Assembly (NCBI RefSeq): GCF_018863395.1
Contig: NZ_JAHKRR010000004.1
Coordinates: 248,001 to 312,000, forward strand
Direction: 5' to 3'
Length of the DNA: 64,000 nucleotides
Origin: Sinomicrobium weinanense
Lineage (GTDB): Bacteria; Bacteroidota; Bacteroidia; Flavobacteriales; Flavobacteriaceae
The notes under the pieces: generated by a model
Told to the model about the DNA's origin: nothing
Seen by the model: the letters and a program-made list of their open reading frames with translations, nothing else
The model's database searches: none
Made by a program: the position numbers and the translations under genes
Shown here: in pieces, positions 3,104 to 53,318 of the stretch
Layout of the letters: every line of letters starts with the position of its first letter
How positions within the stretch are numbered: position 1 is the stretch's first letter

Positions 3104-3184
3104 GGTTCAATAACGGTTAAAGTTGCGGGTTACAGGTTGCAAGTTGCAGGCATGCTCAACCTACAACTTTAAACCTTGAACTTA
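3104..3184. repeat. Heptamer-repeat hairpin (GGTTGCA type)
   Basis: The left arm runs as period-7 words GGGTTAC AGGTTGC AAGTTGC AGG; the right arm, after CATGCTC, is AACCTAC AACTTTA AACCTTG AACTTA, the complementary words. It lies in the divergent yicC/aminotransferase spacer, upstream of both starts, so it is not a terminator for either. Confidence 0.75.
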
Positions 3185-3219
3185 TTCGTTATAGAATACG
3201 GTTTTTACCAGACTTGGTT

Positions 3220-3227
3220 TATATTTG
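3220..3227 (+). promoter_or_regulatory. -7 promoter element for the D-amino acid aminotransferase
   Basis: TATATTTG matches TAnnTTTG exactly and is 19 bp before the ATG at 3247. No convincing -33 TTG is present 17-23 bp upstream. Confidence 0.55.
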
Positions 3228-3246
3228 AGCGCTTAAATGGTTAGTA

Positions 3247-4107
3247 ATGAAAAAAACGTATCCGAAGGCCGTGTATCTTAACGGGGAATGGATGGAAAGT
3301 GAAAAAGCATCTGTTTCTGTTTTTGATCGTGGTTTTTTGTTTGGGGATGGTGTATATGAGGTGATCCCGGTTTATGAAGGGAAGTTTTTCTTGCTGGAAG
3401 AACATTTAGACCGGTTAAAGTACGGATTAAATGAAACCCGGATCGGGTTTGAGGTAAGTGCTGTTGAAAATGTGTTGAAAACAGCCGTGGAGAAAGCAGA
3501 ACTGACCCATAGAGACGGGACCGTATATATGCAGGTAACCAGGGGCATCGCTCCCCGGTCTCATTTTTTTCCTGCTGATGCAGAGCCGACAATTTTGATA
3601 TATGCTTCTCCATTGGTGATGAAGGGTTTTGAAAACAAGCTGGTAAAAGTTTTGATCTCGGAGGATTTTCGCTGGCATCGGTGCGATATAAAGTCCACTT
3701 CGTTAATGGCCAATGTAGGGCTCAATAATGATGCATACAGCCAGGGATTTTATGAAAATGTATTGCAAAGGGATGGCCTTTTTACGGAAGGATCGCATAC
3801 CTCGGTATTTTTTGTGAAGGATAATATTGTTTATACCCATCCGAAAGGGCATCATATTTTACCGGGGATAACCAGGAAAGCTGTTATTGAATTATGTGAA
3901 GAGCTGGGGATCGAAGTCAGGGAAAAAGCATTACATATAGACGATACAGCTCATGTTGATGAAGTTTTTATCGCCGGAACAACAGTTCAGATCACGGCTG
4001 TTGGTGAAATGATGATGGATGGCGTATTGAAATTCAGGAAAGAGGGGGCAGGTACGATCACTAAAAAGCTCCAGCAGCAATTTATAAAGCGAACCGGAAG
4101 CCTGTAA
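3247..4107 (+). CDS. dat: D-amino acid aminotransferase (class IV PLP)
   Basis: Class IV PLP transaminase. Residues 1-40 (VYLNGEWMESE then FDRGFLFGDGVYE) are the fold signature shared with branched-chain aminotransferases. The PLP Lys is K149 in CDIKSTSLMANVGLN, near the usual position of this family's catalytic Lys. The APRSHFFP segment (R104, H106) corresponds to the Arg-x-His carboxylate trap of bacterial D-amino acid transaminases, which favours D-alanine/D-glutamate exchange over BCAT or ADC lyase. Length 286 is typical. It stands alone on the plus strand and converges on the DmpA-type peptidase. Substrate preference is inferred from that motif. Confidence 0.85.
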   Translation: MKKTYPKAVYLNGEWMESEKASVSVFDRGFLFGDGVYEVIPVYEGKFFLLEEHLDRLKYGLNETRIGFEVSAVENVLKTAVEKAELTHRDGTVYMQVTRGIAPRSHFFPADAEPTILIYASPLVMKGFENKLVKVLISEDFRWHRCDIKSTSLMANVGLNNDAYSQGFYENVLQRDGLFTEGSHTSVFFVKDNIVYTHPKGHHILPGITRKAVIELCEELGIEVREKALHIDDTAHVDEVFIAGTTVQITAVGEMMMDGVLKFRKEGAGTITKKLQQQFIKRTGSL

Positions 4108-4118
4108 AAGGGGCAGGA

Positions 4119-5288
4119 TCATTTTTTCTTTATAATACGATGTTCTTTTAAGATATCAAGCACTTTTGATACAGGGAGCGCCTCGATCTTTCTGTTGTTC
4201 TTTCCCGTGGTGGCTTTGGCTGTAAAGAGCGCGTTTAAAATGGCTTCTTCGGTAGCCTCAATAGCGGCCATGAACAATGGGGACATATAGTCGTTGGCGA
4301 CGACTTCTTGTTTCAACAGGTGTGTGGTTTTATAAGCGATCTGTGTTTCTTTGGCTGTTGAAAATGCAATGATATAGTCACCGCTTCCGTTCGAGGCAAT
4401 ACCCCCGGTTTTGGCAAGCCCCATAAAGGCGCGTTTGGCCAGGCGATCTAAATTTCTATGGTCCAGGGGAGCATCTGTGGCTACTACGATCATGCAGGAG
4501 CCGTCTACATTGTTTAAAAGCTGATCGCTAAAAGCAAAGCGGCTTAATTCTTTTCCAACATTGATACCGGCTATCTGCAGCACCCCTCCGAAATTTGCTT
4601 GTACAAGTACACCTACGGTATAGCCTCCCAGGCTCCCGGGCAGTTTTCGCGATGAGGTGCCTATTCCACCTTTATACCCAAAACAGACCGTCCCGGTTCC
4701 GGCTCCGATATTTCCTTCCTGTGCATTGTTCTCGGTAGCGTTATTGATCGCTGAAAGCACATCCCGGGTTTTGACATGCTGGCCCCTGATATCGTTTAGG
4801 TAGCCGTCATTGGTTTCGCCTACTACCGCATTCACCGAGCGGACATTCTCATTGCCTTTCTGCCGGAGCGTATATTTTATAACGGCATCCATGGCAGTCG
4901 CAACGCTTAGGGTATTGGTCAGGATGATCGGGGTCTCTATATTCCCCAGTTCGTTGACCTGTGTGCTTCCTGCAAGTTTTCCAAACCCGTTTCCCACAAA
5001 GACAGCAGCAGGCACTTTTTGCTGAAAAATATTTCCTCCATGCGGAAGGATCGCCGTGACCCCGGTTCTTATGGAATCGCCTTTTACCAGAGTGGTGTGC
5101 CCTACTTTTACCCCTGAAACATCTGTTATGGCATTTTGTGTCCCCGTGGGGATAACTCCTATTTCAATCCCGTAATCCCTTATTCGCTCCTGGGCATATG
5201 TGCCTGATGCTAGGAAACAAAAGAGCAGGAGAAAGAGGGCCGCTTTTGAATACATTGTTAATCGGGGACTTATGAGATTTGTGTTCAT
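4119..5288 (-). CDS. P1 family peptidase (DmpA/BapA-type aminopeptidase)
   Basis: Secreted Ntn-type self-processing peptidase of family S58/P1, whose members release N-terminal L- or D-residues or beta-amino acids. A signal peptide with hydrophobic core AALFLLLFCFLASG ends at YAQ (about residue 33); the in-frame Met12 (5255) is an equally good start. Family blocks follow in order: IRDYGIEIG, ITDVSGVKVGHTTL, GVTAILPHGG, the cofactorless GYKGGIGTSSR turn (about 204-214) and ASNGSGDYIIAF, whose Gly302-Ser303 is the likely autocleavage site giving alpha and beta chains. It is convergent with the D-amino acid transaminase 11 bp away, a suggestive pairing of D-residue release and use. Confidence 0.88.
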   Translation of the reverse strand: MNTNLISPRLTMYSKAALFLLLFCFLASGTYAQERIRDYGIEIGVIPTGTQNAITDVSGVKVGHTTLVKGDSIRTGVTAILPHGGNIFQQKVPAAVFVGNGFGKLAGSTQVNELGNIETPIILTNTLSVATAMDAVIKYTLRQKGNENVRSVNAVVGETNDGYLNDIRGQHVKTRDVLSAINNATENNAQEGNIGAGTGTVCFGYKGGIGTSSRKLPGSLGGYTVGVLVQANFGGVLQIAGINVGKELSRFAFSDQLLNNVDGSCMIVVATDAPLDHRNLDRLAKRAFMGLAKTGGIASNGSGDYIIAFSTAKETQIAYKTTHLLKQEVVANDYMSPLFMAAIEATEEAILNALFTAKATTGKNNRKIEALPVSKVLDILKEHRIIKKK

Positions 5289-5300
5289 GGGTATCGGTGG

Positions 5301-5756
5301 TTAAAAGTGTAGTTTCATCCCTTCGTGCGTAGCCCGGAATCCCAGTTTTTCATAAAACCCAATGGCTTCGGGGCGCTTTTTATCGGTGGTCAGTTGCAGT
5401 ACATGGGCGTTTCGTTCTTTGGCGCGTTTTATGGCCCAGGCAAACATCTGCTGCCCTATGCCTTTTCCCCTTTGGTCTTTTCTGATCCTTACCGCTTCGA
5501 TCTGTGCCCGTATTCCGCCGCGATAGGTGAGGTACTGGATGAAGCTGAGCTGCAGTGTGCCGATAATTTCTCCACTTCCGTTCTCCACAACGATCAATTC
5601 CTGGTTAGGGTCCTTGTCTATGTTCCCGAAAGCGGCCAGGTATTCTTCCGGGAGCGGCTGGCGATAGTTTTCCCGGGCTTGCCCCAGCTTGTCATCGGCC
5701 AGCATCTGCACGATGAAGGGCAGGTCTTTTTCTGTCGCTTTTCGAAAGTTCAGCAT
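5301..5756 (-). CDS. GNAT family N-acetyltransferase
   Basis: A complete 151-residue GNAT fold: the beta-4 strand QIEAVRIRKDQRGKGIGQQM carries the acetyl-CoA pyrophosphate loop (R/Q-x-x-G-x-G/A, residues about 93-101), followed by the KRAKERNAHVLQLTTDKKR helix-strand and the C-terminal AIGFYEKLGFRATHEGMKL. It lies 12 bp upstream of the P1 peptidase on the same strand, so is probably co-transcribed. The substrate is unknown; similar small GNATs act on amino acids or peptides. Confidence 0.85.
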   Translation of the reverse strand: MLNFRKATEKDLPFIVQMLADDKLGQARENYRQPLPEEYLAAFGNIDKDPNQELIVVENGSGEIIGTLQLSFIQYLTYRGGIRAQIEAVRIRKDQRGKGIGQQMFAWAIKRAKERNAHVLQLTTDKKRPEAIGFYEKLGFRATHEGMKLHF

Positions 5757-5777
5757 GGGTAAAGTAAGGGGTAAGGG

Positions 5778-6536
5778 TTATAATTCCCTTACCCAGATAT
5801 TGCGGAAGCTCACTTCGCTGCCGTGGTCCTGTAATTTTATCGGTGCTTTGCCGTGGGGGTCGTTCTTGGGCCAGCCTATATATTCGGTGGTCCCTTTGAT
5901 CTCTACGTGGTCCTGAACCAGAATGCCGTTGTGGAGCACGGTAATGGTTCCCGGTTTGATCTTTTCTCCGGTATTGTTGAATTCGGGAGCGTGAAAAATA
6001 ATATCATATGTATTCCATTCCCCGGTTTTTACGGAGGCTTTGGCAAGGGGGACACTTTGTTTGTACAGGGAGCCTACCTGCCCGTTTACATAAGTGTCGT
6101 TGTTATTGTTGTCCAGTACCTGGATCTCATAACGGTCTTGCAGAAATACGCCGCTGTTGCCCCGGTTCTGGCCATCTCCTTTTATTTTCTCGGGAGATTT
6201 CCATTCCAGGTGAAGCTGAACGCTTCCGAAATCCTTTTTGGTCTGTATGTCGCCCGCACCGGGTTTTACCGACATGCTGCCATCGGAATTTAAGGTCCAG
6301 GGAGCTTTGGAACCATTTTTTTCGCTGACCCATTCGTCCAGGTTTTTGCCGTCGAACAGAACAATGGCATCACTGGGAGCCCCGTTATCAGCAGCCGGAG
6401 TTACTTTTGGCGGAACGGGGTGGTAAATTTCCGTTTCTTCGGGTTTTGTGGGTTCTTTTTGCATGTTTTTTTTCTGTGCGTAGGTATATATACCGCTCAT
6501 AAGGAGGGCGAAGACTAATACGTATGTCTTTTTCAT
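5778..6536 (-). CDS. DUF1080 (3-keto-disaccharide hydrolase-like) secreted protein
   Basis: Secreted concanavalin-like beta-sandwich of the DUF1080 family; characterised relatives cleave 3-keto-glycosides. A signal peptide ends at YAQ (about residue 20), followed by a polar linker rich in P and K. Family motifs are VLFDGKNLDEW, GNSGVFLQDRYEIQVLD, GEWNTYDIIFHAPEFN and the C-terminal DHGSEVSFRNIWVREL. It precedes GNAT on the minus strand by 21 bp. A second, diverged DUF1080 gene lies immediately upstream, so two enzymes or subunits of the same fold are supplied together. Activity is inferred from family and neighbours. Confidence 0.88.
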   Translation of the reverse strand: MKKTYVLVFALLMSGIYTYAQKKNMQKEPTKPEETEIYHPVPPKVTPAADNGAPSDAIVLFDGKNLDEWVSEKNGSKAPWTLNSDGSMSVKPGAGDIQTKKDFGSVQLHLEWKSPEKIKGDGQNRGNSGVFLQDRYEIQVLDNNNNDTYVNGQVGSLYKQSVPLAKASVKTGEWNTYDIIFHAPEFNNTGEKIKPGTITVLHNGILVQDHVEIKGTTEYIGWPKNDPHGKAPIKLQDHGSEVSFRNIWVREL

Positions 6537-6555
6537 CTTTTTATTTTTAAACGGA

Positions 6556-6627
6556 AGATCAATGACCGGTGACCGGTAACGGATGACCGATGTATGCCCC
6601 TGTCATCTGTCTTCGGTCCTCCATTCT
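6556..6627. repeat. Heptamer-repeat hairpin (GGTGACC/GATGACC type)
   Basis: Period-7 words AATGACC GGTGACC GGTAACG GATGACC GATGTAT form the left arm; TGTCATC TGTCTTC GGTCCTC form the right arm. It lies between the two DUF1080 genes, which are on the same strand. Confidence 0.75.
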
Positions 6628-6691
6628 GTATATGTTCATTTAAAAAGTTAATCATTTTCCCATGGGTATGAGAATTGATCATGGAAGTTTT

Positions 6692-7453
6692 TTATTGTAA
6701 TTCCTTGATCTTTATGTTTCGGAAAGAGACCTCATTACCGTGATGTTGCAGGCCGATCTTCCCGGTTTTATAGGCTCCGAAGCCTTCCCAGCCGTTAAAT
6801 TTGGAATCTTTTATCATATTTTCCCACTCCTCGCCGTGTACAGGGAAGTTGACGATCTCCACACCGTTGAGCCATACTTCGCCTTCGTTGGCATTATGGT
6901 CTATCTTCAGGACCATGGTGTTCCATTCTCCTGCGGGTTTTGCCACCTTTTCCGAAGGGGGGACCATATCGTACAGGGCTCCTGCCTGGTGGGTAGTGCC
7001 TGCCTTGGCATCCGGGTGTCTTTCATTGTCCAGGACCTGTATTTCCGGTCCGGTCTGGTAAGGTTCGTGAAGTTCCGGGACCTCTTTAACTCCCCAGAAC
7101 ACACCGCTGTTCCCTGCTTCGGATATTTTCCATTCCAGGGAGAGCTTAAAGTTGGTGTAATCTTTATCGGTAACCAGGTTCTTACCTTCAACCTTGCGGT
7201 CATTGTTTGGGGTGAGTACCAAGGTCCCGTCCTGGATGCTCCATTCGGGGGAGATCTCATCGGAATTATAACCATGCCAGCCCGAGAAGGTTTTACCGTC
7301 AAAAAGGGATACCCATTCGCCATCCTGTTTTTCCTGGGTTTCGACAACAGCGGCCTCTTCTTTTTTTGCCGCTTCTTCAGTGTCTTTTTTGTTAGCCTCT
7401 TTGCATCCTACCAGGAAGAGCAGGGAAAGAGCGCAAAATCCAATCTTTTTCAT
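6692..7453 (-). CDS. DUF1080 lipoprotein (3-keto-glycoside hydrolase-like)
   Basis: Lipoprotein paralogue of the neighbouring DUF1080 protein. The N-terminus MKKIGFCALSLLFLVGCKE has a lipobox (LVGC, Cys17), followed by a charged K/E/A linker. The sandwich motifs are SLFDGKTFSGW, AGNSGVFWGV, GPEIQVLDNERHPDA, AGEWNTMVLKID and GLQHHGNEVSFRNIKIKEL. Length 253 matches single-domain family members. Membrane anchoring here against a soluble copy next door suggests different positions along one periplasmic or surface route. It is downstream of a TIM-barrel isomerase gene (33-bp gap) and is likely in its operon. Confidence 0.9.
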   Translation of the reverse strand: MKKIGFCALSLLFLVGCKEANKKDTEEAAKKEEAAVVETQEKQDGEWVSLFDGKTFSGWHGYNSDEISPEWSIQDGTLVLTPNNDRKVEGKNLVTDKDYTNFKLSLEWKISEAGNSGVFWGVKEVPELHEPYQTGPEIQVLDNERHPDAKAGTTHQAGALYDMVPPSEKVAKPAGEWNTMVLKIDHNANEGEVWLNGVEIVNFPVHGEEWENMIKDSKFNGWEGFGAYKTGKIGLQHHGNEVSFRNIKIKELQ

Positions 7454-7486
7454 TATTTGTGTGTTTAATTATCCGGGACGATGATC

Positions 7487-8554
7487 TTATAGCCCCAGTA
7501 TTTTTTTTAGTTTTTCATCATTGATCTCGGCTCCCGCAAAGTCGTCAAATGCCTTTTCTGTGGCTTCGATGATATGGCTTTGTATGAACGGAGCACCTTC
7601 GCGTGCACCTTGTTCGGGCGATTTTATACAGCACTCCCATTCCATAACGGCCCAGACGTCGCATCCGTATTCTGTGAGCTTGGTAAAAATGGTCTTGAAG
7701 TCTACCTGGCCGTCTCCGAGCGAGCGGTATCTTCCGGCCCGGTCCCTCCAGTCGTTAAATCCGCCGAAAGCGCCTTTTTTGCCGGTCGGATTAAACTCGG
7801 AATCTTTGACGTGGAAAGATTTTATGAATTCGTGATAGTGATCGATATAAGTGATGTAATCGAGTTGTTGCAGTACAAAGTGACTGGGGTCGTATAGAAT
7901 GTTCACTCTTTTGTGGTTGTTGGTCGCTTCCAGGAACCTTTCGAAAGTATCGCCGTCGTGGAGGTCTTCGCCGGGGTGGATCTCGTAGCAGACGTCCACA
8001 TCATTCCCGTCGTAGAGGTCGAGGATGGGTTTCCAGCGTTTGGCGAGTTCTTCGAAGCCCATTTCCACGAGTCCGGCCGGGCGTTGTGGCCAGGGATGTG
8101 CGGTGTGCCACAGCAGGGAACCGGAAAAAGTGGCATGTGCTTTAAGCCCCAGCCTCCGGCTGGCCAATGCCGCTTTGCTGACCTGGTCTACGGCCCATTC
8201 GGTACGGGCTTTGGGATTGTTTTTGTAGGCGTCGGGGGCAAAGTTATCGAACATGATATCATAGGCCGGGTGAACGGCTACCAGTTGCCCCTGCAAATGG
8301 GTGGAGAGTTCCGTGATCTCCAGTCCGTAGGAATTTATTTTTTCTTTTAATTCGTCGCAGTAGGCCTGTCCTTCCGCTTCGTCGGCACTTCCGGCTTTGT
8401 CGAGATCGATAAGGAAGGTTTCCCAGGTAGGGATCTGGATGCCTTTGTAGCCCAGCCCGGCTGCCCATTTACACATTCCGTCCAGGGAATTGAAAGGGGC
8501 TTCACTGTCTACGAATTGTGCGAGAAATACTGCGGGGCCTTTTATTGTTTTCAT
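7487..8554 (-). CDS. Sugar phosphate isomerase/epimerase (TIM barrel)
   Basis: Cytosolic xylose-isomerase-like TIM barrel (AP_endonuc_2 family), 355 residues, no signal peptide. Candidate metal ligands follow the family order: Glu in CYEIHPGEDLH, His in LYDPSHFVLQ, His in KSFHVKDSEF and Glu in AVMEWECC. A long RDRAGRYRSLGDGQVDF loop is typical of the subgroup found next to Gfo/Idh/MocA dehydrogenases. It sits between the DUF1080 pair and two Gfo/Idh genes on one strand. In comparable Bacteroidota loci such proteins act on keto-sugars or inosose-like intermediates; the exact substrate is not evident. Confidence 0.85.
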   Translation of the reverse strand: MKTIKGPAVFLAQFVDSEAPFNSLDGMCKWAAGLGYKGIQIPTWETFLIDLDKAGSADEAEGQAYCDELKEKINSYGLEITELSTHLQGQLVAVHPAYDIMFDNFAPDAYKNNPKARTEWAVDQVSKAALASRRLGLKAHATFSGSLLWHTAHPWPQRPAGLVEMGFEELAKRWKPILDLYDGNDVDVCYEIHPGEDLHDGDTFERFLEATNNHKRVNILYDPSHFVLQQLDYITYIDHYHEFIKSFHVKDSEFNPTGKKGAFGGFNDWRDRAGRYRSLGDGQVDFKTIFTKLTEYGCDVWAVMEWECCIKSPEQGAREGAPFIQSHIIEATEKAFDDFAGAEINDEKLKKILGL

Positions 8555-8623
8555 TGGTATGACTTTTTATATTTAATTTTTTTCTTTTCAAAATCCGGTG
8601 ACGTCTTGCCAGGCTGTTTGTGG

Positions 8624-9763
8624 TTAAATTTGGGTCCAGGCAGCATTGTTCTTATCACTTTCCACCGCGGCATATATGAACTGAACCCCTTTTACGCCAT
8701 CGCTTACCGTAGGGTAGTCCGGGTTTTCGATAGGGTTGTTTTCCAGAACGCTGACCAGGTGCCTGCCGAAATTCCTGTAAATAGTGGCAAAGGCTTCCAG
8801 GTATCCTTCGGGATGTCCTTTGGGGATCCTGGAAACGGCCCTTACCTCGTCGTAAATGTCATTTCCGTCCGGGGTAAGGGTTTGTTCGGGTTTATCTATC
8901 CATTTGGTATAAAGGCGGGTGGAATCTTCCTGGTTCCACTGGATGCTTCCTTTGCTTCCATATACCCGAATGGCCAGGTCGTTCTCTTCGCCTGTGGCGA
9001 TCTGTGAGATGGACATGGTGCCTTTTGCCCCGTTTTCCATCCGGAAAAGGATGTTACCATCGTTATCCAGCACCCGGCCTTCACCGACCCTTCCGAGATC
9101 GGCCGCAATTTCGGTGATCTTTGTTCCGGTGATGTAAGACACCAGGTTTTCGGCATGGGTGCCTATATCGGCCAGGGAACCTCCTACGCCCGATTTTTTC
9201 GGGTCGGCCCTCCAGGGTTTTATAGCAGCCTGTTCGTCGAGTTCCGCGGCCATCCATCCCTGCAGGTATTGTATGTGTATCTTTCTGATATCTCCCAGGT
9301 CGCCGTTTTTAACCATGGCCCTGGCTTGTTTTACCATGGCATTGCCTGTGTAATTGTGTGTCAGGGCAAATAGAAGCCCGGTTTCCCGAACCAGTTTTTC
9401 CAGGCTCCTGGCTTCTTCTACCGTGAGGGTCATGGGTTTGTCGCATACTACGTGAAAACCGTTTTCCAGGGCCATTTTTGCAGGTTCGAAATGAAGATGG
9501 TTGGGGGTGACAATGGATACAAAGTCCATACGCTCCCCTTCGGGAAGTTCCTTTTCTCTTGAGATCATTTCCTGAAAACTACCATAGCACCTGTCTTCCG
9601 GCAGGTAAAGCGATTTTCCGGTTTCTCTGGACTTTTCCGATGTGCTGCTGAAAGCACCGCATACCAGTTCTATCATACCGTCCATGGCAGATGCCTTGCG
9701 GTGAACACCTCCCATAAATGAACCGATGCCGCCACCGATCATGCCCATTCTTAGTTTTCTCAT
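8624..9763 (-). CDS. Gfo/Idh/MocA family oxidoreductase
   Basis: NAD(P)-dependent sugar or inositol dehydrogenase. The preferred start is ATG at 9763 (MRKLRMGMIGGG), giving 379 residues; a GTG 33 bp further up adds eleven unconserved residues. Rossmann loop GGGIGSFMGGVHRKA, then the catalytic-domain hallmark CDKPMT with its Lys, and GGSLADIGTHAENLVSYITG with the conserved Asp/His. No signal peptide is present, so it is cytosolic. A second family member lies just upstream on the same strand but is clearly diverged. Together with DUF1080 neighbours this suits oxidation at C3 of a sugar or reduction of a 3-keto product. Confidence 0.92.
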   Translation of the reverse strand: MRKLRMGMIGGGIGSFMGGVHRKASAMDGMIELVCGAFSSTSEKSRETGKSLYLPEDRCYGSFQEMISREKELPEGERMDFVSIVTPNHLHFEPAKMALENGFHVVCDKPMTLTVEEARSLEKLVRETGLLFALTHNYTGNAMVKQARAMVKNGDLGDIRKIHIQYLQGWMAAELDEQAAIKPWRADPKKSGVGGSLADIGTHAENLVSYITGTKITEIAADLGRVGEGRVLDNDGNILFRMENGAKGTMSISQIATGEENDLAIRVYGSKGSIQWNQEDSTRLYTKWIDKPEQTLTPDGNDIYDEVRAVSRIPKGHPEGYLEAFATIYRNFGRHLVSVLENNPIENPDYPTVSDGVKGVQFIYAAVESDKNNAAWTQI

Positions 9764-9840
9764 GTCGTTCTGATGTATGTTTTTGGATTTTACCACGAAT
9801 TTAGTGGAAACATAACACTTATAAAATTTTTGAGCCGGTT

Positions 9841-9936
9841 ATTAAGGATTGTGAGGAGATTGACTGAGATTGATAAAGGTTGAAAGGTAATGCGATCATC
9901 TCCCGAAATCAATCTCCATCAATTTTATACCTGCCA
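9841..9936. repeat. Inverted tandem-repeat element with about 10-nt period
   Basis: Words GGAGATTGAC TGAGATTGAT AAAGGTTGAA step by 10 nt, and AAATCAATCT CCATCAATTT follow as rough reverse complements. It lies between the two Gfo/Idh/MocA genes and looks like a longer-period version of the heptamer hairpins. Confidence 0.5.
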
Positions 9937-9951
9937 ATCGCAGTTCATCAC

Positions 9952-11085: not shown

Positions 11086-11103
11086 TTTTTAGTTTGTTTT
11101 TTT

Positions 11104-11169
11104 GTCTGAAGTCCGAAGTCCGGTGTCCGAAGTATAAGTAGTTATTACTTCTGACTTCTGTCTTCCGGC
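11104..11169. repeat. Heptamer-repeat hairpin (TCCGAAG type)
   Basis: Left arm TCTGAAG TCCGAAG TCCGGTG TCCGAAG TATAAGT, right arm ATTACTT CTGACTT CTGTCTT CCGG: the same period-7 layout with complementary words. It lies 18 bp before the start of the Gfo/Idh gene. Confidence 0.78.
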
Positions 11170-11348
11170 TTTTTGTTGTTGCGCTTAAATTTAAAATAAA
11201 AATCAGGGGTAAAAAAATTAAATGGAAATCCGGATCATCCGGATTTCCGTTTGTTACATTTAAAAAAGTTCCGGTGCTGATAAAGCTCCTTCGCTTTGGA
11301 TTTTATTTGCCCCATAAGTATTATGCCGATATTCAATTCGGGATGGGC

Positions 11349-12579: not shown

Positions 12580-12614
12580 GTTAGATGTTAGATTTTAGAT
12601 GTGAGATATTAGAC
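12580..12614. repeat. Single-arm heptamer repeat (GTTAGAT type)
   Basis: Five consecutive period-7 words, GTTAGAT GTTAGAT TTTAGAT GTGAGAT ATTAGAC, begin 2 bp from the MFS start codon. No complementary arm follows; instead a CTGAGC...CTGTGCTGAGCACAGTCGAAG palindromic repeat occupies 12636-12672. Confidence 0.75.
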
Positions 12615-16216: not shown

Positions 16217-16297
16217 TGGTAATCGGTATCCGGTGGTCGGTATTCAGTAATCAACTGCTAATTACCAACCACCGAATACCGACCATCAATAACCCCA
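16217..16297. repeat. Heptamer-repeat hairpin (GGTATCC/GGTGGTC type)
   Basis: Tandem words GGTATCC GGTGGTC GGTATTC AGTAATC, then after AACTGCTA the complementary ATTACCA ACCACCG AATACCG ACCATCA. Bases 16225-16242 pair with 16263-16280 over 18 bp with two G-T pairs. It starts 2 bp after a stop codon but lacks a T-run. Confidence 0.85.
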
Positions 16298-18765: not shown

Positions 18766-18846
18766 GGTTCAAGGTTTAAAGTTGTAGGTTGCAGGTTGTA
18801 AGTTTTAATCCAACCTGTGACCTGTAACCTGTAACATCGAACACCG
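18766..18846. repeat. Heptamer-repeat hairpin (GGTTGCA type)
   Basis: Left words GGTTCAA GGTTTAA AGTTGTA GGTTGCA GGTTGTA AGTTTTA; right words AACCTGT GACCTGT AACCTGT AACATCG AACACCG. About 24 bp can pair if G-T pairs are allowed. It resembles the element at 3104-3184. Confidence 0.85.
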
Positions 18847-19400: not shown

Positions 19401-19735
19401 CTGTTAAGCGTTTGCAGCCGGGGGATAAGTCGTAAAACATACTTTTAACTCGGATAATGAGATATATCCGGACCGGCTTTTTCGTTATTAATGGTTTTAA
19501 GCCACTAATATAAGTAATAAAACAGATTCTTCCGGGTGTTTTAGTATATTTTAAATCTCTTTTTGTGATATTTGGAAGCGTTGTTTAGTTTTGGAGTTCG
19601 GGAGTCTGGGAGTTTATGAGGATGTTCTTACCTCTCTGATAACCGGCTTGAAACTCCTTAACTCCAAAACTCCAAAAACTAAAAAAAATCTTACCTTTAC
19701 AACTATTATGCGTGCATAAGATTTAAAAGAGAGCG
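19401..19735. other. 335-bp intergenic spacer (cytochrome c / thioesterase, divergent)
   Basis: No credible ORF. It holds AT-rich sequence and, at 19587-19681, an inverted repeat built of 7-8 nt words: TTTGGAG TTCGGGAG TCTGGGAG on the left and AAACTCC TTAACTCC AAAACTCC on the right. Promoters for both flanking genes must lie here, but no full consensus was found. Confidence 0.6.
19587..19681. repeat. 7-8 nt tandem-repeat hairpin (GGGAGTC type)
   Basis: Words ending in GGAG/GGGAG repeat three to four times, then after about 40 nt the complementary CTCC words repeat four times. Related single-arm words occur at 50830-50868. Confidence 0.7.
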
Positions 19736-29287: not shown

Positions 29288-29392
29288 AGTCCGAAGTCTG
29301 AAGCAATGCCCTGAGCACAGTCGAAGGGTCCGAAGTAGAATTAATTATAAATAACACTTCCGACTTCGCGCCTCGGACATCTGACCTCAAAA
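29288..29392. repeat. Heptamer-repeat hairpin interrupted by a CTGAGCACAGTCGAAG repeat
   Basis: Left words AAGTCCG AAGTCTG AAG are broken at about 29303-29326 by CAATGCCCTGAGCACAG-TCGAAG, then resume GGTCCG AAGTAGA. The right arm is ACTTCCG ACTTCGC. It lies between synthetase 2 and the TonB receptor, inside the apparent operon. Confidence 0.75.
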
Positions 29393-38791: not shown

Positions 38792-38865
38792 TTGGTATCC
38801 GGAGTTGCAGGTTGCGGGTTGAATTAAAATCAGCAACCTGCAACTTGTAACCTGCAACCTTCAGC
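38792..38865. repeat. Heptamer-repeat hairpin (GGTTGCA type) after tatD
   Basis: AGTTGCAGGTTGC (38803-38815) pairs perfectly with GCAACCTGCAACT (38833-38845). Further words GGGTTGA on the left and TGTAACC TGCAACC on the right extend it. It is the same word family as 3104-3184 and 18766-18846. Confidence 0.88.
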
Positions 38866-41540: not shown

Positions 41541-41628
41541 AGAGAGGTGGCCGAGTGGTCGAAGGCGCACGCCTGGAAAGTGTGTATACGGCAAAACCGT
41601 ATCGAGGGTTCGAATCCCTTCCTCTCTG
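41541..41628 (+). tRNA. tRNA-Ser (GGA anticodon)
   Basis: AGAGAGG (41541-41547) pairs with CCTCTCT (41621-41627), discriminator G at 41628. The D arm has GGCCGAGTGGTC; the anticodon loop CTGGAAA, with stem CACGC/GTGTG, gives GGA at 41575-41577 (reads UCC/UCU). A long variable arm (TATACGGCAAAACCGTA) and T arm GGGTTCGAATCCC are typical of class II serine tRNA. The 3' CCA is not encoded. Confidence 0.96.
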
Positions 41629-45150: not shown

Positions 45151-45753
45151 TTAGAACCAATACGGAAAAACCAGCACTTGTGGGAGTACACCCAGCAGGA
45201 TCCCCAGAATTATTTCCTTCGTGTTATGGGCGCGGATGTATAGCCTGGACGAAGCCACGGCTCCTACGGCGAGTATAAGAAGGACAAGAAGCAGGGTGAT
45301 GTTCAGCCGGAAATGAATGCCAAGTTCCGTCACAAATGTGGTCAGCCCTGCAATGCCCATCATATGAATGCTGGCTTTTACCTTTAGGAAAACAAGAAAA
45401 AGACAAGCAAACAGAGCTATTAATATGCCCAGGAAGAAATAGTGTAACTCCGGGGAGAATGTTCTGGGAACAATATATGCCGTGATGATACAGGTTATGG
45501 GGATAGCTACAAACAAGGGGGCTTTCCGCTCTTCTACCCCCGAAAGTTCATGAGATCGGACCCATCCCATATTCCGGAGTAAAAAATAAAGCACGATCGG
45601 TACTATGAGTGTAAGGATCAGTACAGGGATAATAACGCTTTTTTCTACCGCTTGAGGCTGATATCCGGGGAAGATGATATAATAGATCGCTGTTCCCGCA
45701 AAAGGCATGAAAAGCGGATGAAAGAGGTAGCTGAATGATCTTAAAAAATACAT
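45151..45753 (-). CDS. PAP2-like integral membrane protein
   Basis: 200 residues, about six membrane helices. The C-terminal part HMMGIAGLTTFVTELG and ASSRLYIRAHNTKEIILGIL echoes the last two PAP2 motifs (PSGH-like H, then SR-x5-H-x3-D/E), while the first (K-x6-RP) is replaced by KASIH. It may be a degenerate phosphatidate phosphatase-like protein or a different fold with chance likeness. Convergent with the PorT-like gene, 3 bp apart; 81 bp downstream of rpoN. Confidence 0.6.
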   Translation of the reverse strand: MYFLRSFSYLFHPLFMPFAGTAIYYIIFPGYQPQAVEKSVIIPVLILTLIVPIVLYFLLRNMGWVRSHELSGVEERKAPLFVAIPITCIITAYIVPRTFSPELHYFFLGILIALFACLFLVFLKVKASIHMMGIAGLTTFVTELGIHFRLNITLLLVLLILAVGAVASSRLYIRAHNTKEIILGILLGVLPQVLVFPYWF

Positions 45754-45834
45754 ATACGACTGTGGGTTTGGAATGGCAAAAAAGACCGGGAGGGAGTGAA
45801 AAAACCATTTTTGCCCTTGCGTGGTCCATCTCTT

Positions 45835-47298: not shown

Positions 47299-47327
47299 CT
47301 GTATTCGATTACTCCTGACTTATATTG

Positions 47328-47361
47328 CAAAAATAATCGAAAACTTTGAATCCGGGAACAA
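47328..47361 (-). promoter_or_regulatory. Promoter of rpoN
   Basis: On the minus strand: TTG (complement of CAA 47359-47361), 23-bp spacer, TATTTTTG (complement of CAAAAATA 47328-47335), 29 bp before the rpoN ATG. The spacer is at the upper limit of the consensus. Confidence 0.55.
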
Positions 47362-47463
47362 TAACAGGATAAATAGGTGCTGCTTTGTTTTGCGCAGGTG
47401 GCGCGGTAGCGGGAATTGTACTATATATGGTCCGCAATAAGGACGGGCTTTCCGGGGAATGGA

Positions 47464-48228
47464 TCATTTCCTGAAAAAATCACCGGCTGTATCAGTGCTT
47501 TCCACCCAGAAACCGGAATTGGCAGAAAGCACGAATTCACTCAACCCTACCTCTTCCGTTTCGGGAGACCAATCATAGGTATATCCCAGGCGTGTCCAGG
47601 GATAATGGCGGTCGTTTTCAGATCCGAGGGTACGGTAATAGGCAAAAATGATATAGTTGTTAAACCACGAAACATAGGTCGCTGTAACATTGTCCCGGAG
47701 GGCTGCCCCGGCCGATGTGGTGTGGATGTCCGGATCGCCGGCAGGGCGGTAGAGGCTTTCCGGGTTGACCCAAAGCGTACTGATATGGGTGTTGCTGTTT
47801 TCGTTTGCAGGGGGCAGGCCTAATACCTGGCAGATACGCATAATGGTGTCGGAGGCCTGTGTGAGGTCTGTTTTTAGCCGGGCTTTCATTTGCGAAGGAA
47901 TGAATAACCAAGACTCTCCCCAGGTATTGGTAATGGAGTCGCCTGCGGGATAGCTGGACGGATATTTATTAAAACTGGCCATTAACACATAGTCCCGGCC
48001 ATTGATCTTTTTCCATTGCAATCCGGGATTTTCCGGGCTTATAGCCCATAGCGTATCGATGATCTCAGATGTGTCGGCTACCATGGCATCGGTAACAGAT
48101 AAATGGTATAGTTCGTCCGGGGTGTATTCCGGTTCGGGAACAGTGTCGTCATCGCTGCTACACGAAATGAAAACGATTGTCGTAAGTATAACCGCTACCG
48201 GTCTTAACAGGGTAGTATAAAATGGCAT
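47464..48228 (-). CDS. Uncharacterised lipoprotein
   Basis: 254 residues. Signal peptide with lipobox FISC (Cys23) followed by SSDDDTVPEPEYTP. No family recognised. The middle repeats Trp/aromatic strands (SWLFIPSQMKARLKTDLTQA, YVSWFNNYIIFAYYRTLG), and the mature protein appears all-beta with charged loops. It sits between rpoN and asnS on the same strand but 165 bp from the first. A cell-envelope protein of unknown function. Confidence 0.75.
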   Translation of the reverse strand: MPFYTTLLRPVAVILTTIVFISCSSDDDTVPEPEYTPDELYHLSVTDAMVADTSEIIDTLWAISPENPGLQWKKINGRDYVLMASFNKYPSSYPAGDSITNTWGESWLFIPSQMKARLKTDLTQASDTIMRICQVLGLPPANENSNTHISTLWVNPESLYRPAGDPDIHTTSAGAALRDNVTATYVSWFNNYIIFAYYRTLGSENDRHYPWTRLGYTYDWSPETEEVGLSEFVLSANSGFWVESTDTAGDFFRK

Positions 48229-48413
48229 AAGTAAAGATTTGGGAATATAAATATAAACAAAAACGAACCCGATAGCAAGATGGGAAGGAAAATGCTTAAA
48301 ACAAAAATATTCCTTGACACATGGATCTGAAGTTGCTTGTGTCTTTTAGGTGTAAGTTACAGTCTTATGTCAGTTTTAAAAAGGCATTTGGGAAAGCAGG
48401 GCCGGAAATTTTC

Positions 48414-48449
48414 AAAAAAAATCCCGGCTCGAATTGTTTCGGGCCGGGA
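48414..48449 (-). terminator. Rho-independent terminator of asnS
   Basis: TCCCGGCTCGA / TCGGGCCGGGA (11 bp, one G-T) with loop ATTGTT, followed on the minus strand by a run of seven T. It lies 15 bp after the asnS stop. Confidence 0.88.
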
Positions 48450-48464
48450 AATTCAGGTGAGATC

Positions 48465-49898
48465 TTAAAACTCCGCACTCTGTGGTGTTCTCGGAAAGGG
48501 AATAACATCCCGTATATTGGTCATTCCGGTGGCAAAGAGCACGAGCCTTTCAAAGCCCAGTCCAAAACCACTGTGAACTGCAGTACCGTATTTTCGAAGG
48601 TCCAGGTACCACCAGAGTTCTTTTTCGTCAATACCCATGGTCTTCACTTTTTCCAGTAGCACATCATAACGTTCTTCCCGTTGCGATCCTCCTACGATCT
48701 CGCCAATACCCGGGAAGAGGATGTCCATGGCCCTTACCGTTTTGCCGTCGTCGTTCAGCCGCATATAAAACGCCTTTATCTTGGCGGGATAATCAAAGAG
48801 GATCACCGGGCATTTAAAATGTTTTTCTACCAGGAAGCGTTCGTGCTCACTTTGAAGGTCGGCACCCCATTCCTCAATGATATACTGGAACTTTTTCTTT
48901 TTATTGGGCTTGGAATTCTTCAGGATGTCAATGGCCTCTGTATAGCTGACTCTTTTGAAATTGTTGTCCAGTACGAAGTGGAGTTTTTCCGTAAGGGTCA
49001 TGCTGCTTCTTTCGTTCTGGGGCTTGGTCTTTTCTTCGTCCAGAAGGCGTTTTTCCAGGAATTCCAGGTCATCCTTACAATGTTCCAGGACATAGCGGAT
49101 AACGTATTTTATAAAATCTTCAGCCAGGTCCATGTTGCCGTCCAGGTCCATAAAGGCCACTTCGGGTTCTATCATCCAGAACTCGGCCAGGTGCCTGGAA
49201 GTATTGGAGTTTTCTGCCCGGAATGTAGGCCCGAATGTATATACCTTGCCCAGGGACATGGCATAGGTTTCGGCCTCCAACTGACCGGATACGGTAAGAT
49301 TGGTCTCCTTGCCGAAAAAATCTTCTTTATAATTAACGCTGCCATCCTCATTCAACGGTGGGTTTTTGGCGTCGAGTGCACTTACGCGGAACATTTCTCC
49401 TGCCCCTTCGGCATCACTTCCGGTGATGATGGGGGTGTTGACATAGTTAAAACCGTTGTTCTGAAAATACCGGTGCACTGCAAACGACAGGGTAGAACGC
49501 ACCCGCATTACGGCACCAAAGGTATTGGTCCGGGTACGCAGATGGGCGTTTTCCCTGAGAAACTCCAAAGAGTGTTTCTTGGGCTGGATAGGATATTCAT
49601 CAGGATGAGAATCGCCCAGCACCTCCAGCCGGGTTACCTGTATCTCTACTTTTTGCCCTTTTCCAGAACTTTCTACCAGGGTGCCCTCTATGTGCAGGGC
49701 TGCTCCCGTGGAGATCCGTTTCAGGACCTCTTCGGGTGTTTTTTCAAAATCGACTACGCACTGGATGTTGTGTATGGTAGAGCCGTCATTCAGTGCAATA
49801 AAGCGATTGCTCCGGAATGTTCTTACCCATCCCTTAACACTTACTTCCTGTAATAGCAGGTCTTCGACAAGCAGGTCTTTTACACTGTAAACCTTCAT
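48465..49898 (-). CDS. asnS: Asparaginyl-tRNA synthetase
   Basis: Charges tRNA-Asn, 477 residues. N-terminal OB-fold anticodon domain ([20 protein letters not shown]), class II motif 2 [20 protein letters not shown] (the FRAE-x-S loop) and motif 3 [20 protein letters not shown] with the C-terminal [12 protein letters not shown]. The N-E-x-x-x-S residues favour Asn over Asp. A -7 box lies 121 bp upstream. Confidence 0.98.
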
Positions 49899-50018
49899 TT
49901 TTTTGATCTTCTTACTGAACGATACACTTTTCTACGGACTTTCCCTGTCTCTTTTTATCAGAGCGGAGGGGTATGTAAGCTGTGAAAAAGCGTATGGCAT
50001 GCGGTTAATATCAGTTGG

Positions 50019-50026
50019 CAAATATA
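50019..50026 (-). promoter_or_regulatory. -7 promoter element for asnS
   Basis: CAAATATA on the plus strand is TATATTTG on the minus strand. It lies 121 bp upstream of the asnS ATG. Confidence 0.5.
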
Positions 50027-50361
50027 GGTGTTTTTCATAGTTTTTTTGAAGATTTCGGAGGGATTATCAGGGTAAACTAAAGCTGAAGAATACCGAAACC
50101 CTTGAAGTGACTTTGATGGCTTAGGTCTTATGTCAAAATTCATAAAGGCAGGCCCGGGCGATAAAATTAGAAGATAAACGGGCTTGCAGGCCTCCTGTAT
50201 ACTTGTATCCGCGAACACCCGTGCCCTCGTATATTCCTCCCTGGCCTTAAATTTAAAAAAGGGGATTTTTCCCCTTACCTGTCAAGGCCTGCTGCAATAC
50301 TTTTGAGGTACAGATAATAAGTTGAATTATTTGTTTTAGGTAAAGTAGGTTTGGGGAAGCC

Positions 50362-50426
50362 AAAAAAAGCCTGTCGGTCCTACTCCGATCGTGAAAGGTC
50401 GGGGTTTATTTTCCGGCAGGTTTTTT
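50362..50426. terminator. Nested double hairpin, possible bidirectional terminator or small structured RNA
   Basis: The outer stem CCTGTCGG (50370-50377) pairs with CCGGCAGG (50413-50420), flanked by seven A and six T that also pair. The inner stem ACTCCGATC (50382-50390) pairs with GGTCGGGGT (50397-50405) around GTGAAA, with G-T pairs. Symmetric A/T flanks would allow termination in either direction. Confidence 0.65.
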
Positions 50427-50541
50427 GATTTTGAATTACCGGGCTTTCCGTGAAATATTGATGCTTCTGTTCGGTTTACATCCCCTTTTTGGTCCCCTTT
50501 AGGGCAATGTCATTTAGTTAAGGTCATGGATATAAATGTAT

Positions 50542-50681
50542 CACCCCTTCGGGGTTTAGAATCTCTTTAATGCCTTTGGGGCTATAAATATTTAAGCCTT
50601 TCAGGCTTTTTTTGATCCCGAAGGGATCACAGAATTATAGAATCAGAAACGGTAAGACAATATATAAACCCCGAAGGGGTG
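50542..50681. repeat. 140-bp noncoding element with perfect 17-bp inverted ends
   Basis: CACCCCTTCGGGGTTTA (50542-50558) and TAAACCCCGAAGGGGTG (50665-50681) are exact reverse complements, and each contains its own CCCC-TTCG-GGGG or CCCC-GAAG-GGG hairpin. Inside lie AAGCCTTTCAGGCTT with a T-run (50594-50613) and the palindrome GATCCCGAAGGGATC (50614-50628). It looks like a MITE-type or structured-RNA element. Confidence 0.75.
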
Positions 50682-50829
50682 GTATAATTAGCCAAACTAA
50701 ATGATATTGTCCTCAAGAAGAGAGCTGTAACTGTCTTTAAAAGACCCTCCGCTTGTACTGAGCCCGGCCGAAGTATGAGAGGGGTTGGGGTGTGTAAGGG
50801 ACAGGAGAGTGTAACCCAAAGCAATCCAT

Positions 50830-50868
50830 TCCTTTAACTCCGAAACTCCCCGACTAACAAACTCCCAA
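50830..50868. repeat. Single-arm 7-8 nt tandem repeat (AAACTCC type)
   Basis: TTTAACTCC GAAACTCC CCGACTAA CAAACTCC CAAACT ends 2 bp from the stop of the MMPL gene. The words match the right arm of the element at 19587-19681. Confidence 0.6.
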
Positions 50869-50869
50869 A

Positions 50870-53251
50870 CTATTTATCCTCATCCGTCAAAACGTCGAAA
50901 TTGGGTTCTTTGAGCACCTGTTTATTGGCAATGCTTTTTTCCAGTGACAGCAGCAGCGATGGCAGAAGAATAAGGTTGGAAAGCATGGCGAACAGCAGTG
51001 TGGAGGAAACCAGTCCTCCGAGGGCTACTGTCCCTCCGAAACTCGAAGTCATAAAGACCGAAAAGCCGAAAAACAGGACAATAGAGGTGTAGAACATGCT
51101 TACCCCGGTTTCCCGCAGGGCGGCAAAAACGGACCGCCGTATCTTCCAGCCATTGCTCACCAGTTCCTGCCGGTATTTGGCCAGGAAGTGGATGGTGTCG
51201 TCTACCGATATACCAAATGCAATACTAAAGACCAGTATGGTAGAGGGCTTTATGGGGATACCCAGGAAACCCATGACCCCGGCCGTGATGATAAGCGGGA
51301 ACAGATTCGGTATCAGTGATATAATGATCATCTTAAAGGACCGGAACATATAGGCCATAAATATGGCAATGAGCAATATGGCCAGGGAAAGGGAAATGAC
51401 CAGGTTTTTTACCAGGTATTTGGTGCCTTTCATAAAAACCAGGGCCTTACCCGTCATGCTTACATCATAACGGTCCTTAGAAAATATCTTGTCTATATTG
51501 GTCTTTAGCTGGTGCTGGACCTCTTCCATCTGATCCGTTCCCATATCCTTCATAAAGGTGGTAATACGTGCTATTTGCCCGGTAGAATCTATAAAACTCC
51601 GCAATAGGTCAGTGTGGCCTGATGATTTTTTGGCATAGGAAAGGATAAAATGATTTTCCTGGGTGCTCGGCAATTGGTAATAAGTGGGGTTCCCGTTGTA
51701 ATAAGCCTGTTTGGAATATTTAACGAGGTTAACCACCGATATGGGCTTGGAAAGCCCGGGGGTTTCCCTGATAAGTTCTTCCAGTTTGTCCATTCTTTGC
51801 AGGGTAGATAATTTGAGCACCCCGTTTTTCCTCCTGGTATCGATCATGATCTCCAGGGGCATGATACCGTCGAATTCCTTTTCAAAAAAGCGGATGTCAT
51901 CAAAGAAATCGGCACTCTTGGGCATGTCTTCAATAATACTGCCGGATATTTTCATCTGGTAAATACCAATAATGCTGGCAACAAGCAGGATGAGGGAGCA
52001 GACGAATATTTCGATCCGTTTGTGCCGTACGGTTTGCTCCATCCAGTTGACGAACCCGCCGATCCACCGTTTGTTCAGGTGCTTCAGGTGTCTTTTCTTG
52101 GGCAGGGACATGAAGCTGTAAATAATAGGGATGATCAACAGCGACAGGATAAATATGGCCAGGATGTTAATAGAGGCCACGATCCCGAATTCCTTGAGCA
52201 ATTTACTTTCGGTAACGATAAAAGAAGCAAACCCGATAGCCGTTGTAGCATTGGTCATTAAAGTGGCATTACCCACCTTTGAAATTACCCGCTGCAGTGA
52301 TTTGGCCTGGTTACCGTGTTTTTTTACTTCCTGCTGGTACTTGTTGATCAGGAAAATACAGTTGGGGATCCCGATGACAATGATAAGCGGGGGAATGAGT
52401 GCTGTAAGCACAGTGATCTCGTAGTGCAGCAGCCCCAAAATACCAAATGCCCACATCACCCCGATGATCACTACGATCATGGAAATAAATGTAGCCCGGA
52501 ACGATCGGAAAAAGAAAAAGAAAATAAGCGAAGTAACTCCCAGTGCAGCCAGTATAAAGCCGCCGATCTCATCAATGATATTCTGGGAGTTCAGGGTCCG
52601 GATATAGGGCATGCCCGACACATGTACCTTTAACCCGGTCTTGTTTTCGAATTTTTCAATAAGGGGGATAAAGTCGTTGAAAATAAAATCTTTCCGGACA
52701 GGAGTGTTTACGATCTCTTTATCGATATAGACCGCAGTGCGTATGGTCTGGTTTTTCTTGTTGAACAGCAGGCTTTCATAGAAGGGAAGTTCGTGAAAAA
52801 GATGATTTTTCAGGGTGTCTATGGCTGCTTTGGTTTCCGGGTGATGATCCAGGAAGGGCTTTAACTCGAATTCCTGTTTTTCCGTGTTCTTCGACAGTTC
52901 CTTGAGGTTATCGGTAGAAACCACAAGGTCTACTTCAGGAAAAGCGTTGAGTTGTTTGCTCAGTTTGTTCCACAGGTTGAAGTTTCTGGGGGTGAACAAG
53001 GCCGGGTCCTTTGTGGCAAGGACAATGAGATTGCCTTCTTCACCGAAAGTTTCCAGGAATTTGTTGTACTGGACATTTACCGGGTGATGATCGGGAAGCA
53101 GATTGGCCTCTGTATAAGTGAAACGCATGTTTTTCCACTGTATACCCAGAAAAACCGTAACTCCCACGATAATGAGGAGTATTAAGATCCTGTTCCGGAG
53201 AATTATTCGCGCAACCCTTTCCCAAAAGCCTTTACTGATCCAAGCAACCAT
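50870..53251 (-). CDS. RND superfamily (MMPL/patched-like) transporter
   Basis: Inner-membrane exporter of 793 residues with two halves, each with one helix, a large periplasmic loop and five clustered helices. First half core: ILAALGVTSLIFFFFFRSFR and EITVLTALIPPLIIVIGIP; second half: LVISLSLAILLIAIFMAYMF and VFSIAFGISVDDTIHFLAKY, with the paired Asp residues of the proton relay. The protein resembles sterol/lipid-type MMPL exporters rather than AcrB. No periplasmic adaptor gene is adjacent, so it acts alone. Cargo unknown, possibly a lipid or hopanoid. Confidence 0.9.
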   Translation of the reverse strand: MVAWISKGFWERVARIILRNRILILLIIVGVTVFLGIQWKNMRFTYTEANLLPDHHPVNVQYNKFLETFGEEGNLIVLATKDPALFTPRNFNLWNKLSKQLNAFPEVDLVVSTDNLKELSKNTEKQEFELKPFLDHHPETKAAIDTLKNHLFHELPFYESLLFNKKNQTIRTAVYIDKEIVNTPVRKDFIFNDFIPLIEKFENKTGLKVHVSGMPYIRTLNSQNIIDEIGGFILAALGVTSLIFFFFFRSFRATFISMIVVIIGVMWAFGILGLLHYEITVLTALIPPLIIVIGIPNCIFLINKYQQEVKKHGNQAKSLQRVISKVGNATLMTNATTAIGFASFIVTESKLLKEFGIVASINILAIFILSLLIIPIIYSFMSLPKKRHLKHLNKRWIGGFVNWMEQTVRHKRIEIFVCSLILLVASIIGIYQMKISGSIIEDMPKSADFFDDIRFFEKEFDGIMPLEIMIDTRRKNGVLKLSTLQRMDKLEELIRETPGLSKPISVVNLVKYSKQAYYNGNPTYYQLPSTQENHFILSYAKKSSGHTDLLRSFIDSTGQIARITTFMKDMGTDQMEEVQHQLKTNIDKIFSKDRYDVSMTGKALVFMKGTKYLVKNLVISLSLAILLIAIFMAYMFRSFKMIIISLIPNLFPLIITAGVMGFLGIPIKPSTILVFSIAFGISVDDTIHFLAKYRQELVSNGWKIRRSVFAALRETGVSMFYTSIVLFFGFSVFMTSSFGGTVALGGLVSSTLLFAMLSNLILLPSLLLSLEKSIANKQVLKEPNFDVLTDEDK

Positions 53252-53269
53252 CCTGTTTTTTTAACTCGG

Positions 53270-53277
53270 CAAAGATA
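53270..53277 (-). promoter_or_regulatory. -7 promoter element for the MMPL gene
   Basis: CAAAGATA on the plus strand (TATCTTTG on the minus strand), 19 bp upstream of the MMPL start. The -33 region is occupied by a heptamer tract. Confidence 0.55.
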
Positions 53278-53281
53278 CAAA

Positions 53282-53318
53282 AGAAGTTAGAAGTACGAAG
53301 TTAGAAGCGTGAAGTTAA
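53282..53318. repeat. Single-arm heptamer repeat (AGAAGTT type)
   Basis: AGAAGTT AGAAGTA CGAAGTT AGAAGCG TGAAGTT in strict period 7, directly behind the -7 box of the MMPL gene. No complementary arm is seen. Confidence 0.75.

Follow-up and report, generated by a model that had tools for sequence, protein, structure and literature searches.

Foldback arrays of degenerate heptamers with a purine-G-T core in the intergenic DNA of Sinomicrobium weinanense

Foldback arrays in the window

The 64,000-nt stretch of Sinomicrobium weinanense DNA analysed here (contig NZ_JAHKRR010000004.1, positions 248,001 to 312,000; hereafter the window) belongs to a genome of 5.36 Mb in 30 contigs and carries, in the spacers between its genes, foldback sequences whose two arms are built of short, degenerate tandem repeats. 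An earlier sequence-only reading had singled out eight such two-arm sites, all of which do fold back. Their general form is 5'-(RGTNNNN)n, a short loop and (NNNNACY)n-3'. Each arm holds some 3-8 units, which recur at steps of 7 or 8 nt. Ten proteins adjoining the two-arm sites belong to ordinary Pfam families, and a search of the window against Rfam 15 at gathering thresholds returned only a tRNA at 41541-41628, with no match at any of the sites. Inverted arms composed of short tandem repeats, with a loop between them, also characterize the much larger, eukaryotic foldback (FB) elements of Drosophila, to which no relation is claimed.

Units of the type RGTTNNA make up site S1 (3104-3184, with the words AGTTGCA and GGTTACA) in a divergent spacer, S5 (18766-18846) between tandem genes, and S8 (38792-38865), also between tandem genes and 5 nt past a stop codon. 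The type AGTCCGA is seen at S3 (11104-11169) and S7 (29288-29392), both between tandem genes, the left arm of S7 being interrupted at 29309-29328 by an unrelated palindrome, CCCTGAGC...GAAGGG. Site S2 (6556-6627), with GGTGACC and GATGACC units, lies between tandem genes; S4 (16217-16297), of the type RGTNNTC (GGTATTC and GGTGGTC), lies between convergent open reading frames (ORFs); and S6 (19587-19681), of the type AGTTTTGG, occupies a divergent spacer. Other arrays have a single arm, namely GTTAGAT units at 12580-12614 (+ strand), which fall outside the RGT core rule described below and resemble a stretch in the corresponding spacer of a congeneric genome (G004); AACTCCNN units at 50830-50868 (- strand), which read AGTT on the other strand; AGTTAGA and AGTACGA units at 53282-53318 (+ strand); and a short array of CAACCCGCAACCGGTAACCGG at 57536-57559 (- strand), which the earlier reading had missed.

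At six of the eight two-arm sites (3120, 6562, 11104/11147, 18781/18812, 19593/19651 and 38833) Tandem Repeats Finder calls an arm period of 7 or 8, as it does for three one-arm sites (12580, 50836 and 53282). It makes no call at 16217 or 29288, the former being detected by autocorrelation and the latter only by reading the sequence. The array at 50830-50868 has a period of 8 in place of the 7 originally proposed, and the "longer period" noted for S6 is likewise 8. The palindrome that interrupts S7, CCTGAGC...GAAGGG, recurs at loci L020, L028, L048, L186 and L187, in several places within or next to GGTTCAA-type heptamer arrays; it shows no general association with arrays, CCTGAGC being present in 1 of 41 array spacers and in 19 of 399 spacers of at least 80 bp.

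Genome-wide excess and intergenic position

As an unbiased sample of the genome we used 26 evenly spaced 20-kb stretches (L009-L034, 520 kb), with genes taken as simple longest-ORF calls and the chance level given by dinucleotide shuffles of intergenic DNA. The intergenic portion of this sample holds 26 arrays of period 7 and 13 of period 8, as compared with 1.0 of each in the shuffles, together with 14 arrays (0.6 in the shuffles) at a lag of 14, twice the heptamer step. Each of the remaining lags from 4 to 15 yields at most 4 arrays (0.0-2.4 in the shuffles), and the autocorrelation is raised at lags 7, 8, 14 and 21. There are 52 foldbacks with a score of at least 12, versus 0.5 in the shuffles, many of the 52 being members of other repeat families. 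Two-arm, period-7 repeats, for which the sequence-only reading proposed a genome-wide test, are far above chance in these 520 kb.

The arrays are concentrated outside genes, with 50 in 96 kb of intergenic DNA and 4 in the 758 kb called as genes when L009-L048 and the window are taken together, the stretches L035-L048 having been selected in part near known hits and hence not being unbiased. The 41 array spacers comprise 28 tandem, 8 convergent and 5 divergent ones; among the 36 that are at least 80 bp long these numbers are 26, 5 and 5, where 22.0, 5.2 and 8.9 would be expected from spacer length. Given the lack of the enrichment in convergent spacers that intrinsic terminators would need, termination is not the shared function of the arrays, as had been surmised from the window itself. 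The median distance from an array to a stop codon is 33.5 nt and that to a start is 69.5 nt.

At the repetitive extreme are two near-pure, one-arm arrays, one with 18 GGTTGAC units (L020:8383-8562, not counted among the intergenic arrays of the unbiased sample) and another with 13 GGTTGTA units within a run of 15 (L184:286-437), which are probably recent slippage expansions.

The purine-G-T core and its free neighbours

The window had suggested a different word at each site. The words do vary, but they are not unrelated because they fall into few types, most of which conform to RGTNNNN, with purine-G-T at each 7th or 8th base. At the 60% level this core is found in 16 of the 26 unbiased period-7 arrays, as against 6.6 (standard deviation, sd, 2.1) in a column-permuted null, and in 10 of 12 period-8 arrays, as against 3.1 (sd 1.3), with none of 300 permutations reaching the observed value in either case. 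No RGT excess is seen in the same sample at periods 6, 9, 10 and 11 (2, 4, 3 and 3 arrays). A larger collection, drawn purely by autocorrelation from the unbiased sample, the window and L035-L048, comprises 78 arrays, of which 42 carry RGT in at least 75% of their units, versus 12.0 (sd 2.6) when unit letters are permuted. The rule is not absolute, as the array at 12580 and others fall outside it.

The unevenness within the unit is best seen when units are admitted on their overall agreement with a word (4 or more letters out of 7), with every position given equal weight. The mismatch fractions at positions 1-7 are then.30.06.03.03.47.39.26 for 376 units of the GGTTGCA type,.20.12.06.44.48.15.22 for 97 units of the GGTATTC type of the same genome, and.53.03.05.34.46.05.12 for 278 units of the GGTTTAC type of Myroides. 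GT is thus the best-kept letter pair in both S. weinanense types and among the best-kept in Myroides, other positions being free. This pattern of a kept core with free neighbours would not result from the uniform decay of a copied word.

Orientation and likeness of the two arms

Where two RGT arrays lie within 60 bp of each other, their orientation is predominantly convergent. The unbiased sample contains 6 convergent, 2 same-direction and no divergent pairs, and the same pairing summed over eight overlapping sets, partly chosen by hits, gives 54, 6 and 0, respectively. The coarse word type (GTT or other) agrees between the arms at 30 of 31 convergent sites from partly hit-chosen loci, and across 31 sites the arms differ at the four free positions by 1.69 within a site and 2.43 between sites, a contrast reached in none of 5000 permutations. 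For the 21 sites of GTT type, arms of the same site are hardly closer to each other than those of different sites (1.60 versus 1.65), the corresponding values for the mixed non-GTT remainder (9 sites) being 1.91 and 2.37.

A comparable picture emerges from base pairing. At 29 GTT sites 68-94% of nested arm positions match, and the summed nested pairing of 414 shows no excess over swapped arms (416.8, sd 14.1) or unit-shuffled arms (410.7, sd 8.6). As the arms of a site are no more alike than swapped ones, there is no sign of compensatory change that would favour the regulatory RNA proposed among the early options. Differences between units at distances of 1-4 are 1.94, 2.00, 1.92 and 2.23, revealing no clear memory between neighbours. 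Taken together, the pairing, difference and neighbour comparisons indicate that the arms share a word type and not an exact sequence. A few individual sites, L044:250-325 among them, are nonetheless good mirror images.

Two further ideas were considered and rejected. Inverted duplication or compensatory stems were assessed on 49 rows of foldbacks with period 7 or 8 (one site entering twice) by shuffling the units of a single arm, and one row fell below 0.05; the observed pairing score exceeds the mean in most rows because the rows were selected for pairing. A shared outer-to-inner order of units (net 35 of 45 pairs) proved to come largely from loci found with S5 as the query, and vanishes (net 2 of 22) at loci found with an order-neutral query. 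In the unbiased stretches the order is 5 of 5, from only two arrays and matched or exceeded in 493 of 5000 shuffles, and at loci from other Sinomicrobium species and other relatives it is 9 of 31. The longest word shared between sites gives a weak positive signal at 14-20 nt (16 pairs of at least 20 nt versus 8.8, sd 3.3) and is flat above this (no pairs of at least 25 nt versus 0.4).

Turnover and spread among relatives

The relatives compared include three of the same genus, Sinomicrobium (G001, G002 and G004), and the closest one, G003, so judged from a single protein (94% versus 80-85%). Six of the two-arm sites could be anchored on both sides in G003, and four of these (S2, S3, S5 and S8) are plainly absent both there and in G004, S8 being absent from G001 as well. 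The cleanest case is S3, whose flanks can be aligned in G003 and G004 up to 3-6 nt from the hairpin, which both genomes lack. At S4 and S6 a short unlike sequence, possibly a remnant, stands in G003, and G002 has a foldback of other words at S4; S1 and S7 found no anchoring in the relatives. Additional G003 stretches that aligned about 25 kb more of the S. weinanense genome were left out of this comparison. The differences may reflect either insertion or growth in place.

A further view of turnover is offered by three S. weinanense hairpins situated at contig ends just past a 5S gene and its terminator, the right flanks of which are identical while their unit numbers and loops differ. Among the relatives 12 loci have this rRNA operon (rrn) flank and four of them are readable, one in G004 without such a hairpin and three in G005 with a different common repeat. 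The latter (L351, L354 and L358) is itself a foldback, GGGCGAATTGCAATTCGCCC with CCCCAACC units, in the same place beside three rrn operons.

At E <=0.1 a pure GGTTGCA array matches at least 29 places in the S. weinanense genome, where 23 of 46 candidates were scored, as well as 17 in G004, 10 in G002, 4 in G003, 3 in G001 and none in G005, numbers which do not track relatedness within the genus. Beyond it, the same query finds a single weak place in the 19 other genera of the family that were covered; of 15 genomes from other families, one has 3 places. Preferred words likewise differ, being AGTAGTG and AGTTCTT in G002 and RGTTACA in G004, with some of the contigs chosen for carrying a hit. 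The word of Myroides is RGTKNAC, which has 30 matches, some overlapping, in Myroides odoratus. Of six Sinomicrobium genomes one matches it, once and weakly, and three further genomes of the order have one match apiece. Among the 40 arrays at the M. odoratus loci there are 9 convergent pairs and 2 with the same direction. By eye, the RGTKNAC foldbacks at L292, L293 and L299 of this species adjoin apparent copies of a tRNA gene.

A composed array found no plasmid match in cyanobacteria, and the part of Trichormus variabilis plasmid A that was covered (250 of 366 kb) holds 8 strong period-7 arrays, 2 of them with RGT versus 2.0 in the null, and hence shows no core excess. The same plasmid carries one clear two-arm degenerate period-7 foldback with AGTCAGG-type units (L344:43080-43134).

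Relationship to known repeats

An excess of heptamers in bacterial genomes was reported in 2007 (cited in PMC4692102), and heptamer arrays are described as over-represented in many bacteria, with slippage proposed as the cause (PMC4679880, PMC4692102). The closest counterparts, in the parts of the literature available for comparison, are the GGGAATC arrays of Xanthomonas (Rehm et al. 2015, PMC4692102), which combine fixed and free positions, are intergenic and near the preceding ORF, and form 70 and 75 convergent inverted pairs in two genomes. Together with the GGGGA(C/T)T repeat of Nostoc, they resemble the present arrays in having degenerate 7-nt units, mostly intergenic and with few between divergent ORFs, and differ in that each is described as one G-rich word studied for quadruplex formation, whereas here there are several types, an RGT core and steps of 7 or 8 nt (PMC4692102). 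The intergenic 7-nt excess and the convergent inverted pairs of such heptameric repeats are both seen in S. weinanense; a single dominant G-tract word is not, the array listings showing several types and none with a GGG tract in every unit.

The TAACTGA repeats of Beggiatoaceae, Cyanobacteria and five Bacteroidetes (MacGregor 2015, PMC4679880) also have a period of 7 and are mostly intergenic, and by our reading their other strand, AGTTATC, would fit the RGT rule. As far as that account goes, they are unlike the arrays considered here in comprising one word in direct repeats, which in the Beggiatoa genome lie mostly just upstream of start codons and include a single inverted pair. Since the convergent pairs of Xanthomonas and the TAACTGA arrays are published, the layout belongs to a known kind, and the S. 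weinanense arrays look like a many-worded relative of the former (PMC4692102). The initial impression that no described family has this property was thus too strong. The several word types, RGT core, 7-or-8-nt step and absence of memory between arms have no precedent in the literature compared, and a full-text search of a limited collection for six repeat strings returned nothing related.

REPs and REPINs with their RAYT transposases similarly form dispersed intergenic hairpins, unlike the present ones in being GTAG- or CGTC-tagged palindromes, with no 7-nt arm period mentioned in the accounts as compared (PMC3733652, PMC3116915). No such tag with a fixed palindrome was noticed on reading the array listings, no systematic test having been made. 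A link to RAYTs was rejected, as all three loci with a Y1 (PF01797) transposase gene of RAYT type in this genome (L178, L179 and L180, around C23:556152, C1:845618 and C28:191156) are flanked by other palindromes, distinct for each. The RAYT elements tested do not account for the arrays, in keeping with the sequence-only reading. Separately, a dispersed palindrome that starts with CGTCA(T)...CTGAACTTGTTTCAG, found at L027:4424-4504, L031:19715-19790 and L013:10586-10641, resembles a CGTC-tagged REP family.

Interpretation

The feature is real, widespread and bound by rules. Its anatomy, the kept core with free neighbours, the convergent orientation, the word type common to both arms, the lineage-specific words and the presence or absence of sites between species are established by the above observations. 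As an explanation we tentatively favour recognition arrays whose core is read by a putative factor, in which form the binding array initially listed among several options survives. Such a reader would recognize purine-G-T at each 7-8-nt step, so that the core would survive, or be written, while the remainder drifts. It would most likely be a protein, or an enzyme multiplying the elements, which binds short tandem sites in convergent arrangement. Pairing in the hairpin would be a by-product of similar words in both arms, exact pairing apparently not being kept, units would be gained and lost through slippage or unequal exchange, and new sites would arise often enough for close species to have few in common.

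Several observations weigh against such a reader. None was found for the core, and RRM RNA-binding proteins (PF00076) have no match in the S. weinanense genome and matches in 5 of 40 genomes. Several word types in one genome would demand several readers or a tolerant one, and the core may be kept by the process that makes the arrays, with no reader involved; the near-pure long arrays do show plain slippage. The core is missing from 10 of the 26 unbiased period-7 arrays at the 60% level, is present in 9 of 26 (versus 4.2) at the 75% level, and shows no excess at the latter level in G003 (1 of 10 versus 1.2). Conservation at positions 6-7 is roughly equal to that of the core in the Myroides and GGTATTC types. 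When the best-kept trinucleotide of 55 longer arrays is determined without an anchor it is GTT in 18, AGT in 4, GGT in 3, AAA in 8 and others in 22, so that GTT, AGT or GGT accounts for 25 of the 55.

Neutral slippage of the polymerase would have arrays grow in 7-nt steps, a foldback of the 3' end add the second arm and point mutation degrade the units, with neither function nor reader; we rate it only slightly less probable than the recognition array. Some contribution of slippage, one of the options listed from the window, is certain because near-pure long arrays exist; the published heptamer excess for which it has been proposed (PMC4679880, PMC4692102) and the three rrn-linked hairpins, with the same right flanks and different unit numbers, are consistent with it, and strand-specific foldback priming could yield the single orientation. 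Alone it fails to explain the unit statistics: under position-blind collection the core of the GGTTGCA type has mismatches of.03-.06 against.26-.47 elsewhere, neighbouring units are no more alike than distant ones, and random seeds would hardly give few types across a whole genome.

A miniature foldback mobile element, with the arms serving as tandem binding sites for a putative transposase or recombinase that copies it from site to site, appears unlikely. Dispersal in the genome (at E <=10, 55 matches to S5 and 51 to the pure GGTTGCA array, with some sites matched twice and candidates partly scored), absence of four of the six anchored sites from the closest relative and the lineage-specific words would all suit such an element. 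Against this, 27 sites show no target-site duplication, the longest word shared by their flanks averaging 4.11 nt versus 4.26 (sd 0.18) with flanks swapped and the ends of the element not being sharp; shared unit order is at most weak, its first-seen polarity being an artefact of the query; and all three Y1 transposase genes found adjoin other palindromes.

Least probable is an RNA stem that protects, terminates or processes transcript ends, with the repeated words merely keeping the arms complementary, for, while the matching nested positions, the closeness of arrays to stops, the shortage of divergent spacers (5 versus 8.9) and the location past the terminator at three rrn operons would agree with it, arms of the same site pair no better than swapped ones, convergent spacers are not enriched and two of the eight window sites lie in divergent spacers.

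Implications

Extending the recognition-array reading, one could envisage a process common to the Flavobacteriales, and perhaps to other phyla, which writes or keeps convergent RGT arrays with near-random letters in between, so that arrays would be born degenerate and not be decayed copies, and the words would differ between lineages with core and orientation remaining the same; we consider this rather improbable as it stands. The heptamer excess has no accepted cause in the literature compared, and the core, the free letters, the convergence, the likeness of arms in type only and the turnover between species are quantitative constraints on any account of it. Simple slippage followed by decay fits these rules poorly, and so does selection for exact stems. 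Should the core have a reader or writer, it could be found by way of these arrays.

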